Below, piece after piece: positions 97 to 21,375 of a stretch of 21,571 nucleotides of DNA (position 1 is its first letter; every line of letters starts with the position of its first letter). The stretch spans positions 1 to 21,571 of the forward strand of contig DXIA01000121.1 of assembly GCA_019113125.1 (NCBI GenBank). The letters are read 5' to 3'. This stretch comes from Candidatus Pygmaiobacter gallistercoris (lineage in GTDB: Bacteria; Bacillota; Clostridia; Oscillospirales; Ruminococcaceae). The notes under the pieces were generated by a model. That model had not been told where the DNA came from. It searched no databases and saw only the letters and a list, made by a program, of their open reading frames with translations. A program made the translations under genes and the position numbers.

Positions 97-117
97 CGGG
101 AGGAGCAGAGCGGATGA
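76..117 (+). CDS. 13-residue leader peptide overlapping the nrdD start
   Basis: An ATG at 76 follows GGAGG (64-68) by 7 bases and opens a 13-codon frame, MPPREFFREEQSG, ending in TGA at 115-117. The stop overlaps the nrdD start codon in an ATGA arrangement, which is typical of translational coupling. The frame spans the 3' arm and T-tract of the leader hairpin. Its residues show no run of a regulatory amino acid beyond two Phe codons encoded by the T-tract. It could be a chance frame. The good ribosome binding site and exact stop/start overlap argue that it is translated. Confidence 0.4.
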   Translation: MPPREFFREEQSG

Positions 118-2420
118 CCAAGGTAAAGACCATCGTCAAGCGGGACGGGCGGACCGTTCTCTACGATGAGACCAAGATCGCGGCGGCGGTGCTCAAGGCG
201 CTGGCGGCCAGCGGCAACGAGGACCCCGCGGCGGCGGCGCGGATCGCAAATGCGGTGGGGGACCAGCTGTCGGTCGGCGGGGAGGAGAGCTCCCCGACCA
301 TCGAGCAGATTCAGGACACGGTGGAGAAGGAGCTGATGCGGGAGGGGTATGCCGACGCCGCAAAGCGGTACATCCTCTACCGGGAGAACCGGACCCGGAT
401 CCGGGACGGCAAGACCTCCCTGATGCGGGCGATCGACGAGATCACCAACGTCGACGCGCGGCTGAGCGACATGAAGCGGGACAACGCGAACATCGACGGC
501 AACACCGCGATGGGCAGCATGCTGCAGATCGGCACCACCGGCGCGAAGGCCTACAACGAGCTGTATCTTTTGACCGACGAGCAGCGGGAGGCCTACCACA
601 ACGGGGACATCCACATCCACGACTTCGACTTCTACGCGCTGACCACCACCTGCACCCAGATCGACCTGCTGCGGCTGTTCAAGGACGGCTTTTCGACCGG
701 CCACGGCTTTCTGCGGGAGCCCCAGAGCATCGCGAGCTACGCCGCCCTCGCGGCGATCGCGATCCAGTCCAACCAGAACGACCAGCACGGCGGCCAGGGG
801 GTGCCGAACTTCGACTACGCGATGGCCGAGGGGGTGGCCAAGACCTTCAAGAAGAGCTATCTGCGCAAGCTGACCGAGTCGTTTGAGGACGTGACCGGCA
901 GCTTTGAGCAGGAGGACTTCCTGCGGCAGATCCTCGAGGACACCACCGCCGAGGTCGGCGAGGGGCCGCGGCTGACCGACGACGCGGATCCCGGCAGGGC
1001 GGCGCTCTTCGACCGCCGGGTCGCCGAGACGCTGGCCGAGAGCGGCCGCCTCTCGCTCGAGGAGGCGGCCCGGATCGTCGGCTCCGCCCGTCACCGGGCC
1101 GAGCGGGACACCGACCGGGCGACCTACCAGGCGATGGAGGGCTTTGTCCACAACCTGAACACGATGCACTCCCGCGCGGGGGCCCAGACCCCGTTTTCCA
1201 GCATCAACTACGGCACCGACACCAGCCCCGAGGGGCGGATGGCGATCCGCAACGTGCTGCTGGCGACCGATGCGGGGCTCGGCCACGGGGAGACCGCGAT
1301 CTTCCCGATCCACATCTTCAAGGTCAAGGAGGGGGTCAACTACAACGAGGGGGATCCCAACTACGACCTGTTTGAGCTCTCCTGCAAGGTGAGCGCCAAG
1401 CGGCTGTTCCCGAACTACGTCTTCCTCGACAGCCCCTTCAACCTGCAGTACTACAAGCCCGGCCACCCCGAGACCGAGGTCGCGACGATGGGCTGCCGCA
1501 CCCGGGTGATGGGCAACGTCTACGACCCGACCCGCGAGATCTCCTACTCCCGCGGCAACCTCTCCTTCACCTCGATCAACCTGCCGCGGCTGGCGATCGA
1601 GAGCCATGGGGACGAGGCGCTGTTCTACGAGAAACTCGACGCGATGATGGACCTCGTCGCCCGGCAGCTGCTCGACCGGTTTGAGATCCAGGCCCGCAAG
1701 CGGGTCTACAACTACCCGTTCCTGATGGGGCAGGGGGTCTGGCTGGACAGCGACAAGCTCGGCCCGAACGACGAGGTGCGGGAGGTCTTAAAGCACGGCA
1801 GCCTCTCGATCGGCTTTATCGGCCTCGCCGAGACGCTGACCGCCCTCTACGGCCACCACCACGGCGAGAGCGAGGAGATGCAGCAGAAGGGCCTTTCGAT
1901 CATCGGCCACATGCGGGAGTTCTGCGACAAGAAGGCCGCCGAGACCCACCTCAACTTCGGCCTGCTGGCCACCCCCGCCGAGGGCCTTTCGGGCCGGTTC
2001 ATCCGGATGGACCAGAAACGGTACGGCAAGATCCCCGGCGTCACCGATCGGGAGTACTACACCAACAGTTTCCACATCCCGGTCTGGTACCCCATCTCGG
2101 CCTATGACAAGATCCGGCTCGAGGCGCCCTACCACGCGCTGACCAACGCCGGCCACATCAGCTATGTCGAGCTGGACGGGGACACCGCGAACAACGTCGA
2201 GGCGTTCGAGACGGTGGTCCGCTGGATGCACGACGCCGGGATCGGCTACGGCTCGATCAACCACCCGGTCGACCGGGACCCGGTCTGCGGCTATGTCGGG
2301 GTGATCGGGGACGTCTGCCCCCGCTGCGGCCGGCGGGAGGGCGAGGCGGTCAGCGCCGAAAAGCTCGCCGAGCTGCGCAAGAAGTACCCCGGGGTACCCC
2401 ACTTCTGCGGCTGTGAATAA
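114..2420 (+). CDS. nrdD: anaerobic ribonucleoside-triphosphate reductase, catalytic subunit lacking the glycyl-radical segment
   Basis: This class III reductase makes dNTPs from NTPs without oxygen. The protein has 768 residues. An N-terminal ATP-cone (about 3-95, with KRDG at 9-12) would give allosteric control. The reductase barrel follows, with CTQID (Cys180) and MGCRTRV (Cys461), the likely active-site cysteines. The C-terminus carries the Cys zinc region (Cys725, Cys735, Cys738) and ends in HFCGCE. What is missing is the RxxGY glycyl-radical motif that normally follows the zinc region. It is encoded by the next gene (2463-2615), in the same frame but after four in-frame stop codons. The start at 114 is supported by GGGAGGAG at 98-105. 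Regulation probably involves NrdR and the leader hairpin. Identity is certain; dependence on the separate peptide is inferred. Confidence 0.96.
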   Translation: MTKVKTIVKRDGRTVLYDETKIAAAVLKALAASGNEDPAAAARIANAVGDQLSVGGEESSPTIEQIQDTVEKELMREGYADAAKRYILYRENRTRIRDGKTSLMRAIDEITNVDARLSDMKRDNANIDGNTAMGSMLQIGTTGAKAYNELYLLTDEQREAYHNGDIHIHDFDFYALTTTCTQIDLLRLFKDGFSTGHGFLREPQSIASYAALAAIAIQSNQNDQHGGQGVPNFDYAMAEGVAKTFKKSYLRKLTESFEDVTGSFEQEDFLRQILEDTTAEVGEGPRLTDDADPGRAALFDRRVAETLAESGRLSLEEAARIVGSARHRAERDTDRATYQAMEGFVHNLNTMHSRAGAQTPFSSINYGTDTSPEGRMAIRNVLLATDAGLGHGETAIFPIHIFKVKEGVNYNEGDPNYDLFELSCKVSAKRLFPNYVFLDSPFNLQYYKPGHPETEVATMGCRTRVMGNVYDPTREISYSRGNLSFTSINLPRLAIESHGDEALFYEKLDAMMDLVARQLLDRFEIQARKRVYNYPFLMGQGVWLDSDKLGPNDEVREVLKHGSLSIGFIGLAETLTALYGHHHGESEEMQQKGLSIIGHMREFCDKKAAETHLNFGLLATPAEGLSGRFIRMDQKRYGKIPGVTDREYYTNSFHIPVWYPISAYDKIRLEAPYHALTNAGHISYVELDGDTANNVEAFETVVRWMHDAGIGYGSINHPVDRDPVCGYVGVIGDVCPRCGRREGEAVSAEKLAELRKKYPGVPHFCGCE

Positions 2421-2462
2421 AGATATTGATAGATTCTTATAAAATGAAATGGAGGAGTAACG

Positions 2463-2615
2463 ATGTCAGTCAACGAGAAGAAGGAAGTCGGCAAGGATGT
2501 CGGGTTTGAGCGGATTCGCCGGATCACCGGCTATCTGGTCGGCACGATGGACAAGTGGAACGACGCCAAGAAGGCGGAGGAGCGCGACCGGGTCAAGCAC
2601 GGTCTGACCCGATGA
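2463..2615 (+). CDS. separate glycyl-radical domain of anaerobic ribonucleotide reductase
   Basis: This is a 50-residue peptide. Residues 15-30 read FERIRRITGYLVGTMD, and the C-terminus has WNDAKKAEERDRVKH. This is the C-terminal glycyl-radical region of NrdD, with the radical site expected at Gly23 in RRITGY. The upstream nrdD product lacks this segment. The gene has its own ribosome binding site (GGAGGAG, 2451-2457, 7 bases from GGAGG to the ATG). It is separated from nrdD by 42 AT-rich bases containing several in-frame stops, so readthrough is not a simple explanation. Its stop overlaps the nrdG start (ATGA, 2612-2615), which couples it to the activase that should install the radical. I infer that it binds NrdD as a detached radical subunit, analogous to GrcA/YfiD acting on pyruvate formate-lyase. 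Confidence 0.9.
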   Translation: MSVNEKKEVGKDVGFERIRRITGYLVGTMDKWNDAKKAEERDRVKHGLTR

Positions 2616-3127
2616 TCCGGGTCGCCGGTCTGGCGGACGACTCGATCGTCGACGGGCCCGGCATCCGGGTGACCGTCTTCGGCCAGGGCTGTCCCCACCA
2701 CTGCCCGGGCTGTCAGAACCCCGAGACCTGGTCCTTTGCGGGCGGGGTCGAGATGAGCGAGGAGGCGCTGGCCGCCCGCATCCGCTCGAACCCCCTCGCC
2801 AAGGGGGTCACCTTTTCGGGCGGGGAGCCGTTCGCCCAGCCCGCCGGCTTTGCCAAGCTGGCCGAGCTGCTGCGGGCGGACTACGAGCTCGCCTCCTACA
2901 CCGGCTACACCTTCGAGGAGCTCTACGCGATGGAGGACCCGGCGGTGCGAAAGCTGCTCGGGCTGCTCGACATCCTGGTCGACGGCCGGTTTGTCGAGGC
3001 CGAGCGGACGCTGACGCTGCGGTTCCGGGGCAGCCGGAACCAGCGGATCATCGATCTGCCGAGGAGCCTTGCCGCCGGCAGGGCGGTGCTCTGCACCGCC
3101 GAGCGGTGGACCGGCGGGGAGAACTGA
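2612..3127 (+). CDS. nrdG: anaerobic ribonucleotide reductase activating protein (radical SAM)
   Basis: This activase uses S-adenosylmethionine and a [4Fe-4S] cluster to create the glycyl radical of class III ribonucleotide reductase. The protein has 171 residues, a normal family length. The cluster cysteines are in CPHHCPGC (Cys27, Cys31, Cys34), the CX3CX2C radical SAM signature. TFSGGEPF (67-74) is the SAM-contacting GGEP motif, and the C-terminal RFRGSRNQRIID is typical of NrdG. The ATG at 2612 overlaps the stop of the glycyl-radical peptide and has no ribosome binding site of its own, so translation probably depends on that peptide being translated. An in-frame ATG at 2555 lies inside the radical-peptide gene without a good binding site, and it would add 19 residues unlike the family. 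Confidence 0.95.
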   Translation: MIRVAGLADDSIVDGPGIRVTVFGQGCPHHCPGCQNPETWSFAGGVEMSEEALAARIRSNPLAKGVTFSGGEPFAQPAGFAKLAELLRADYELASYTGYTFEELYAMEDPAVRKLLGLLDILVDGRFVEAERTLTLRFRGSRNQRIIDLPRSLAAGRAVLCTAERWTGGEN

Positions 3128-19896: not shown

Positions 19897-21375
19897 ATGG
19901 ATCGCAGAGAGCAGATCGAGCGCAGCATCATCAAGAAGTTCCGCAAACCGATCTGGAACCGGTTTGTCGGGGGGATCAAGGACTACCACCTGATCGAGGA
20001 GGGGGACCGGATCGCGGTCTGCATCTCGGGGGGCAAGGACAGCATGCTGCTGGCAAAGTGCATGCAGGAGCTGCAGCGGCACAGCTATCTGCAGTTCGAG
20101 CTGAAGTTTCTGGTGATGGACCCGGGCTACAGCCCGGCCAACCGCCGCCGGATCGAGGAGAACGCGGCGCTGCTCGGGATCCCGGTCGAGATCTTCGAGA
20201 GCGAGATCTTCGGGGTGGTGGAGGAGATCGCCGAGAGCCCCTGCTACCTCTGCGCCCGGATGCGGCGGGGCCACCTTTATAAATACGCGCAGCAGTTGGG
20301 CTGCAACAAGATCGCGCTGGGCCACCACTTCGACGACATGATCGAGACGGTGCTGATGAGCATGTTCTACTCGGCCGAGATCAAGACGATGATGCCGAAA
20401 CTGCGCAGCAAGAACTTCGAGGGGATGGAGCTGATCCGGCCGCTGTATCTGGTGCGGGAGCGGGACATCCTCGCCTGGGTGCGGTACAACGAGCTCTCCT
20501 TTCTCCAGTGCGCCTGCCGGCGGACCGAGCAGCGCAGCGACCTCACCGGCACCGACGGGGGCCGGCGGGCGGCGACCAAGGCGCTGATCGCCCGGCTGCG
20601 CAGCGAGAACCCCCAGGTCGACGTCAATATCTTCCGCAGCGTCCACAACCTCAACCTCAAGACGGTGATCGGCTACACCGACCTCGAGGGGAGGTACCAC
20701 CACTTCCTCGACGCCTATGAGGGCCGCTGCGGCCGGCCGGACTATGCGGTCTTCGACCTCGACGGCACCCTGCTCGACTCGCTCTGGGTCTGGCGGGAGG
20801 CGGCGCCGGCCTGGCTGGCCGCCCACGGCCTCCCGGTGCCGGCGGACCTCGAGGAACAGCTGCGGGGGGTGACGGTGCCCGGCGCGATCGCCCGGCTGCA
20901 GCAGCAGTACCAGCTGCCCGGCACCGTCGAGGAGGGGGTCGCCGAGATCTGCGCCCTCGTCGCAAAGGACTACGCCGAAAAGGTGCAGCTGAAACCCTTC
21001 GCCCGGGACTATCTCGACCAGCTGCGGCGGCAGGGGGTGCCCTGCTGCCTTGCCACCGCGTCGGAGGAGCGGTATCTGCGCCCGGCGCTCGAGCGGCTCG
21101 GCCTTGCGCCCTACTTTTCGTTCATCGTCTACCGGGGGGATCTGCCGGTGGACAAGGGGGATCCCGAATACTACCGGCTGCTGGCCGGGCGGTTTGGCGC
21201 CGCGCCCGACCGGCTGACCGTCTTTGAGGACTCGCTCTACGCGATCCGCAGCGCGAAGGAGGCGGGCTGCCGCACCGTCGCCCTCTACGACAAGGCGGCG
21301 GACAGCGAGCGCAGCCGGATCAAGGTCCTCTGCGACTACTACGCCGGCGGATTCGACGCGCTGCTCGAGGGATGA
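19897..21375 (+). CDS. fusion of a TtcA-like PP-loop tRNA-thiolation protein and a HAD-family phosphatase
   Basis: A single frame of 492 residues joins two domains. Residues 1-275 are a TtcA/TilS-type PP-loop ATPase: SGGKDS (44-49) binds ATP and LGHHFDD (141-147) is conserved. Cys116 and Cys119 (CYLCARMRRG) with Cys205 match the FeS-binding cysteines of TtcA, which thiolates cytidine 32 of tRNA. The second Cys pair is CxC (205, 207) instead of CxxC. Residues 282-492 are a HAD hydrolase of the beta-phosphoglucomutase/phosphatase type: FDLDGTLLDS with nucleophile Asp287 and Asp289, ATAS, VDKGDPEYY with Lys, and VFEDSLYAI. Both sets of catalytic residues are intact and no frameshift or internal ribosome site is evident. 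The link between the two activities is unknown. Confidence 0.88.
   Translation: MDRREQIERSIIKKFRKPIWNRFVGGIKDYHLIEEGDRIAVCISGGKDSMLLAKCMQELQRHSYLQFELKFLVMDPGYSPANRRRIEENAALLGIPVEIFESEIFGVVEEIAESPCYLCARMRRGHLYKYAQQLGCNKIALGHHFDDMIETVLMSMFYSAEIKTMMPKLRSKNFEGMELIRPLYLVRERDILAWVRYNELSFLQCACRRTEQRSDLTGTDGGRRAATKALIARLRSENPQVDVNIFRSVHNLNLKTVIGYTDLEGRYHHFLDAYEGRCGRPDYAVFDLDGTLLDSLWVWREAAPAWLAAHGLPVPADLEEQLRGVTVPGAIARLQQQYQLPGTVEEGVAEICALVAKDYAEKVQLKPFARDYLDQLRRQGVPCCLATASEERYLRPALERLGLAPYFSFIVYRGDLPVDKGDPEYYRLLAGRFGAAPDRLTVFEDSLYAIRSAKEAGCRTVALYDKAADSERSRIKVLCDYYAGGFDALLEG

Follow-up and report, generated by a model that had tools for sequence, protein, structure and literature searches.

Organization of the locus

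The window (the whole stretch of DNA that was analysed, 21,571 nucleotides long) carries an nrdD gene, a short reading frame of 50 codons and nrdG in succession on one strand (Table 1). An earlier note made from the DNA letters had described the first of these as a class III ribonucleotide reductase of 768 residues lacking the glycyl radical motif, and this was confirmed by profile searches: the Pfam NRDD family (PF13597) matches the window NrdD over positions 1-531 of 562 (E 2.7e-182; 607.8 bits against a cut-off of 26.2) and stops there, the chain ending in PGVPHFCGCE. An ATP-cone, a domain common but not universal in NrdD, lies at its N-terminus (PF03477; E 6.1e-22), and the finger-loop cysteine Cys461 was invariant in two alignments of 52 and 29 rows. 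The protein has the traits of class III enzymes (NRDD, ATP-cone, finger-loop cysteine, NrdG) except for a glycyl radical motif on the same chain.

The remainder of the profile, positions 532-562 of 562, is matched by the 50-residue peptide (E 7.6e-9), and the single Pfam NRDD profile is divided exactly at 531/532 between the two proteins. The NCBIfam model PRK07111 is parted in a similar manner, with the window NrdD matched up to position 711 of 746 and the peptide at 710-744, and the peptide also matches PRK14704 (583-617 of 618; E 5.5e-15) and residues 707-738 of the Prevotella copri NrdD structure 8p23 (E 4.6e-7). In the alignment to 8p23, the match of the window NrdD ends at chain residue 705 and that of the peptide begins at 707. 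PF01228, the Gly_radical family of the pyruvate formate-lyase (PFL) type, gave no match to the peptide, which was matched by PF13597 alone. If a 4-residue tag offset in 8p23 is assumed, Cys461 would be equivalent to Cys416 of the published enzyme, and peptide Gly23, which falls on the GY of 8p23, would by the same constant offset be equivalent to Gly711 (PMC11226230, as far as its accessible text goes).

The RRITGY motif was indeed found where the earlier note had placed it, in a separate frame with its own ribosome-binding sequence, 42 nt beyond the stop codon of nrdD. This frame is the same as that of nrdD, and the four in-frame stops that had been reported between them (TAA, TGA, TAG, TGA) are present. 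The nrdG start codon overlaps the TGA of the peptide gene by 4 nt (ATGA, 2612-2615). Elsewhere in the window, a PP-loop ATPase (ATP_bind_3) and a HAD-like hydrolase are encoded together in a single ORF at 19897-21375.

Table 1. Features of the nrdD locus in the window
Feature	Position	Strand	Remarks
nrdD body, 768 aa	114..2420	+	ATP-cone, NRDD barrel and zinc region, glycyl radical motif lacking
Codon for Cys461 of the MGCRT finger loop, where the thiyl radical is predicted	1494..1496	+	Alignment to MGCR of P. copri 8p23
C-terminal tail past the zinc region (REGEAVSAEKLAELRKKYPGVPHFCGCE)	2337..2417	+	Common to split NrdDs
Shine-Dalgarno-like GGAGGAG of the peptide	2451..2457	+	Read from sequence
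50-aa glycyl-radical subunit (predicted)	2463..2615	+	Matches to PF13597, PRK14704 and 8p23
Codon for Gly23 of the peptide (RRITGY), the glycine predicted to hold the radical	2529..2531	+	Glycine in 107/107 aligned split peptides
nrdG, radical-SAM activase	2612..3127	+	TIGR02491 NrdG, 137.7 bits (cut-off 126.1)

The genome to which the window belongs is a draft of 1.6 Mb in 198 contigs, estimated to be 91.6% complete; uncultured Pygmaiobacter are the closest relatives that bear a name. Another full-length nrdD, which had been named as a finding that would count against the split, was looked for in this draft, and no second NRDD match was found. A 572-aa piece of an adenosylcobalamin-dependent class II (B12) reductase is present at a contig end; its RTPR match (E 7e-76) is under the family cut-off because the piece is partial. 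Hence, the split enzyme need not be the sole reductase of this organism.

Distribution among relatives

The window NrdD was scanned against 84,980 species genomes; from the 456 related stretches obtained, the best 80 were retrieved. A glycine-less NrdD with an adjoining peptide was found in 79 of these 80 loci (77 picked up by an initial script; the peptide frames of the other two, L096 and L155, open far upstream); since the best 80 of the 456 are the nearest matches, this share is not representative of Clostridia at large. Many of the relatives are metagenome assemblies, and cultured isolates are also among the split loci, namely Fournierella massiliensis DSM 100451 and An912, Gemmiger sp. 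An194, An50 and An87, Faecalimonas umbilicata DSM 103426 and [Clostridium] fimetarium DSM 9179. As judged from these genomes, many gut bacteria carry the radical glycine on a distinct protein some 50 residues long.

Across 106 loci, the peptide is 44-64 aa long (median 53) and the gap between it and NrdD measures 1 to 669 nt (median 55). Relative to NrdD, the three frames are occupied by 43, 18 and 17 of 78 peptides, 43 being in frame; the in-frame position, considered as a sign of readthrough, was rejected as such because all three frames occur. In most split loci the peptide lies between nrdD and nrdG, the latter being recognised by script downstream of most peptides, though not all. Genomes G002, G001 and G007 have a second, distant NrdD of about 26% identity (L077, L078 and L079, respectively), the C-terminal sequence of which contains a CPKC/CPNC motif and resembles a thioredoxin or glutaredoxin domain. 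In another genome, a stop-broken second nrdD copy (G140:C1:2745989-2747916) was seen next to an intact fused nrdD.

Selection and translation signals

For the analysis of selection, 107 loci were used, 98 of which are distinct by DNA. The radical glycine is present in all 107 aligned peptides, and the same layout with an invariant glycine at 98 distinct loci means that the split arrangement is more than chance. The dN/dS ratio was 0.048 for the peptide core (32 codons); a 120-codon section of the NrdD body gave 0.204 and the tail 0.379. The pairs compared are not independent, and those with saturated synonymous sites were dropped. Both the peptide and the NrdD body are under purifying selection, which is strong for the peptide. 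A strong Shine-Dalgarno-like site precedes 99 of the 107 peptides; in shuffled controls, which used the same choice of starts as the real loci, the mean was 11.4 and the maximum 19.

Association with a separate radical protein

Among 100 related genomes, 33 have an NrdD that ends at or before profile position 542, and a separate radical ORF was found in 32 of these 33. The exception is G022, a 55% complete genome, in which the ORF was looked for and not found. With three further genomes (G251, G289 and G364), each of which has a glycine-less NrdD and a separate radical ORF, the association holds in 35 of 36; G364 has a fused NrdD besides its glycine-less one.

In 14 genomes with a glycine-less NrdD, there was no other NrdD and no match to PF02867 (class I/II) or RTPR; these are drafts of 91-100% completeness, and absence was judged by these two profiles. 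The peptide adjoins nrdD in ten of them (G003, G004, G010, G018, G035, G038, G051, G063, G076 and G088) and is unlinked in four (G021, G036, G041 and G251). G003 and G010 consist of 3 contigs each. G018 is apparently the isolate F. massiliensis An912: its contig coordinates coincide with those of G415, and the nrdD DNA is identical in L041 and L166. A PF02867 match was found in 8 of 20 genomes searched, and a class II enzyme also occurs in several of the named split isolates; hence, the split enzyme is not always alone.

Unlinked radical proteins and the C-terminal tail

A different form of separation was found in G021, G036, G041, G055 and G289, where NrdD ends just ahead of the glycine (for example in FERIKRIR or FERIHRITE) and the radical domain belongs to a protein of about 95 aa that has an N-terminal part of its own and is encoded on another contig. 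Similar free radical proteins also occur in genomes with a fused NrdD. At one such locus (L252, G191:C10), the operon begins with a fused nrdD, followed by the gene of a free radical protein of 101 aa, nrdG and a last ORF, presumably nrdR-like; the 101-aa protein is a candidate spare part for the intact NrdD. Free radical ORFs of less than 160 aa were present in at least 78 of 247 family genomes, among the matches listed.

The tail beyond the zinc region, common across split clades, was seen in none of the fused NrdDs examined. In the window it ends in CGCE, the cysteines of which are not conserved in other split NrdDs. Two tail types can be distinguished, and in a profile comparison they resemble each other across clades (P 3.7e-5). 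The idea that the tail is a decayed radical domain found no support on comparison with fused radical domains (P 0.079 for the longer type and 0.57 for the shorter), shuffling of tail residues giving mixed results (5 of 14 tails at p <0.05). Being shared by split clades and seen in no fused NrdD, the tail points to the exchange of a C-terminal cassette or to a shared origin.

Phylogeny of the NrdD bodies

A tree of 97 rows was computed from NrdD bodies trimmed of their C-termini (quick method, with SH-aLRT support only), L249, L251 and L242 being left out since a motif was not found in them. The window groups with split NrdDs in one clade, made up of 26 bacterial and 2 phage rows, with a support of 99. 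This clade is adjoined, with a support of 94, by L168 (JAUNTE010000019, an Oscillospiraceae MAG), the sole fused locus among the best 80 of the 456 stretches. The NrdD of L168 has two intact tandem glycyl radical domains at its C-terminus; such tandem domains were considered as a common intermediate, and the idea was dropped after a search of 247 family genomes with the L168 C-terminus gave no second case. The split label requires 11 changes on the tree, 9 of them being forced by starred branches. When fused and separate states are compared, the tree as a whole requires 18 changes and its 87 cellular rows require 14, so the expectation that the split might be one clade was not borne out. On this tree, the state has changed repeatedly, in a manner that suits gain, loss and C-terminus recombination alike.

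Copies in phages

From 336 virus loci, 80 were fetched, several of them near-duplicates, and counted by hand. In 59 of the 80, a free radical ORF has no NrdD body in the 4 kb around it; 8 have an NrdD lacking the glycine together with a separate radical ORF, and 11 have a fused NrdD, one of which is interrupted. The remainder were one locus at a contig end and one that the search pattern missed. In whole virus records, the radical ORF occurred alone in 30 of 40 (11 to 95 kb), with a glycine-less NrdD body in 8 and as part of a fused NrdD in 2; such records may be fragments, so the absence of NrdD is not proven for those with the radical ORF alone. In four records that were scanned, phage genes adjoin the radical ORF: those of a holin, an endolysin and a terminase (L176), of a tail fibre, an endolysin and an integrase (L187), of an endolysin-like protein (L192), and of an exonuclease together with a PAPS reductase-like protein (L246). 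In two further phage records, L195 and L206, a free radical protein of the 95-aa kind comes after an NrdD that lacks the glycine. Among three circular Subdoligranulum records, OY725842 has a split NrdD with the peptide and the other two gave no profile match. In PHROGs, the peptide is placed under full-length NrdD families only. The nrdD of Eggerthella phage EL753P1 (L085) is annotated as such and is without the glycine; an ORF in the same locus, annotated as "hypothetical protein", begins as a radical peptide and is then frameshifted.

Alternative explanations

The arrangement could be due to a sequencing error or a pseudogene, that is, one real frame that was misread or a gene in decay. The peptide of the window is in the frame of NrdD and many relatives are metagenome assemblies, which would suit this explanation; it is nevertheless most improbable, as an identical split is found at 98 distinct loci including cultured isolates, four stops intervene in the window, all three frames are used elsewhere, and NrdD and peptide are both under purifying selection. 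For the group, the isolate genomes with the split refute it. It is likewise very improbable that the two ORFs are joined by stop readthrough, frameshifting or a spliced intron. The 43 of 78 loci with the peptide in frame would allow this, but the gaps vary widely in length and frame, a conserved tail ends NrdD and the peptide has its own ribosome site; joining is impossible in lineages where the radical protein is encoded elsewhere in the genome. As for an intron, the insert is about 170 nt and an Rfam scan of the window gave nothing above threshold. Group I and group II introns are larger than this.

Two other explanations accept the peptide as a real protein and give it a different role. It might be a repair part only, in the strict role of GrcA, with the NrdD radical started in another way or NrdD itself serving some other function. 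Free radical proteins of about 95 aa do exist beside fused NrdDs, and GrcA is described as a repair part of PFL (PMC8683613, accessible text). Against this, the split NrdD has no glycine to be repaired, nrdG adjoins the peptide gene, the finger-loop cysteine is invariant and 14 genomes have no other reductase that could be found, which together make a role in repair only unlikely. A role of the peptide with some other glycyl radical enzyme would agree with the phages that carry it without any NrdD body; yet it matches the end of the NrdD profile and not PF01228, and in most split loci its gene is flanked by nrdD and nrdG, so that such a role is extremely improbable.

Proposed mechanism and significance

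The window very probably encodes a two-piece class III ribonucleotide reductase, in which the peptide would be an obligate radical subunit that acts in trans and is activated by NrdG. The NrdD body would bind substrate and effectors and carry the thiyl cysteine. We infer that the peptide would dock at the site occupied in fused enzymes by the C-terminal glycyl-radical loop and supply the glycine, from which NrdG, encoded in the same operon, would abstract a hydrogen, with the peptide bound to the body or before binding. The glycyl radical would then generate the thiyl radical on Cys461. In this mechanism the peptide would be a normal, obligate subunit and probably also a part that is replaced after oxygen damage.

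The role in trans, as proposed in the earlier note, is supported on comparative grounds by the invariant glycine, the purifying selection and the operon with nrdG. The association with a separate ORF in 35 of 36 glycine-less genomes, 14 of them without another reductase found, likewise argues for the view that the peptide represents the normal state, in resemblance to GrcA and PFL. This part of the note stood; the single clade did not, and the unlinked form of about 95 aa and the phage copies had not been foreseen.

Hardly any free-living cell can do without ribonucleotide reductase, and the data suggest a two-part, swappable form of this essential enzyme. We lean slightly towards a wider view, according to which class III enzymes would have become two-subunit enzymes widely, by way of spare parts followed by loss of the NrdD glycine, and phages would plug a subunit of 45-60 residues into the host NrdD and so restart or boost the supply of dNTPs. 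The phage copies suggest a minimal auxiliary gene for that supply. With the radical on a separate subunit, glycyl radical transfer between chains would be directly testable by combining the body with labelled, mutated or oxidised peptides. ORFs of this kind would be poorly named or missed by gene callers and by family models with full-length cut-offs.

Comparison with known systems

No published account of a split NrdD or of a free radical protein of the NrdD type was found in a search that covered mainly openly accessible papers; in the class III literature examined, as far as its accessible text goes, the radical is on the catalytic chain. The fused NrdDs of P. copri (8p23), E. coli and phage T4 share with the window the ATP-cone, the NRDD barrel, the MGCR finger loop, the zinc cysteines and NrdG, and their last 32 or so residues correspond to the window peptide. 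They differ in that the window has its glycine on a separately started polypeptide and that the body has a new tail. The radical domain of P. copri NrdD is described in the accessible text as mobile, and as disordered with dATP (PMC11226230); a detachable domain therefore fits known motion.

In class I ribonucleotide reductase (alpha and a radical-bearing beta), the radical is also on a separate subunit, but its oxygen-dependent metal/tyrosyl chemistry resides in a ferritin-like protein that is evolutionarily unrelated. The class II reductase gene of Pseudomonas aeruginosa is reportedly divided in two; this enzyme, compared here by title only (as cited in PMC9669993), is of another class and has no glycyl radical.

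The closest likeness in function would be to GrcA (YfiD) of E. coli and Y06I of phage T4, small free glycyl-radical proteins, also carried by phage, which work in trans with PFL as is proposed for the window peptide. They serve another enzyme, belong to PF01228 and not to NRDD, and are of about 14 kDa, against about 50 aa for the peptide. A partner enzyme with its own radical domain, as GrcA has, is absent at the window and present for the 95-aa proteins beside fused NrdDs; since the window NrdD has no glycine of its own, the peptide would be obligate, unlike GrcA. That a glycyl radical can work in trans follows from E. coli PflB with a mutated glycine, which makes formate when GrcA is present (PMC12338860, accessible text). 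According to the accessible text of Andorfer et al., only YfiD and Y06I have been validated, and it is speculative whether further glycyl radical enzymes have spare parts (PMC8683613); the free NrdD-type proteins of about 95 aa are candidates for these. If the wider view given above is true, the phage radical subunit would parallel what T4 Y06I is for pyruvate formate-lyase.
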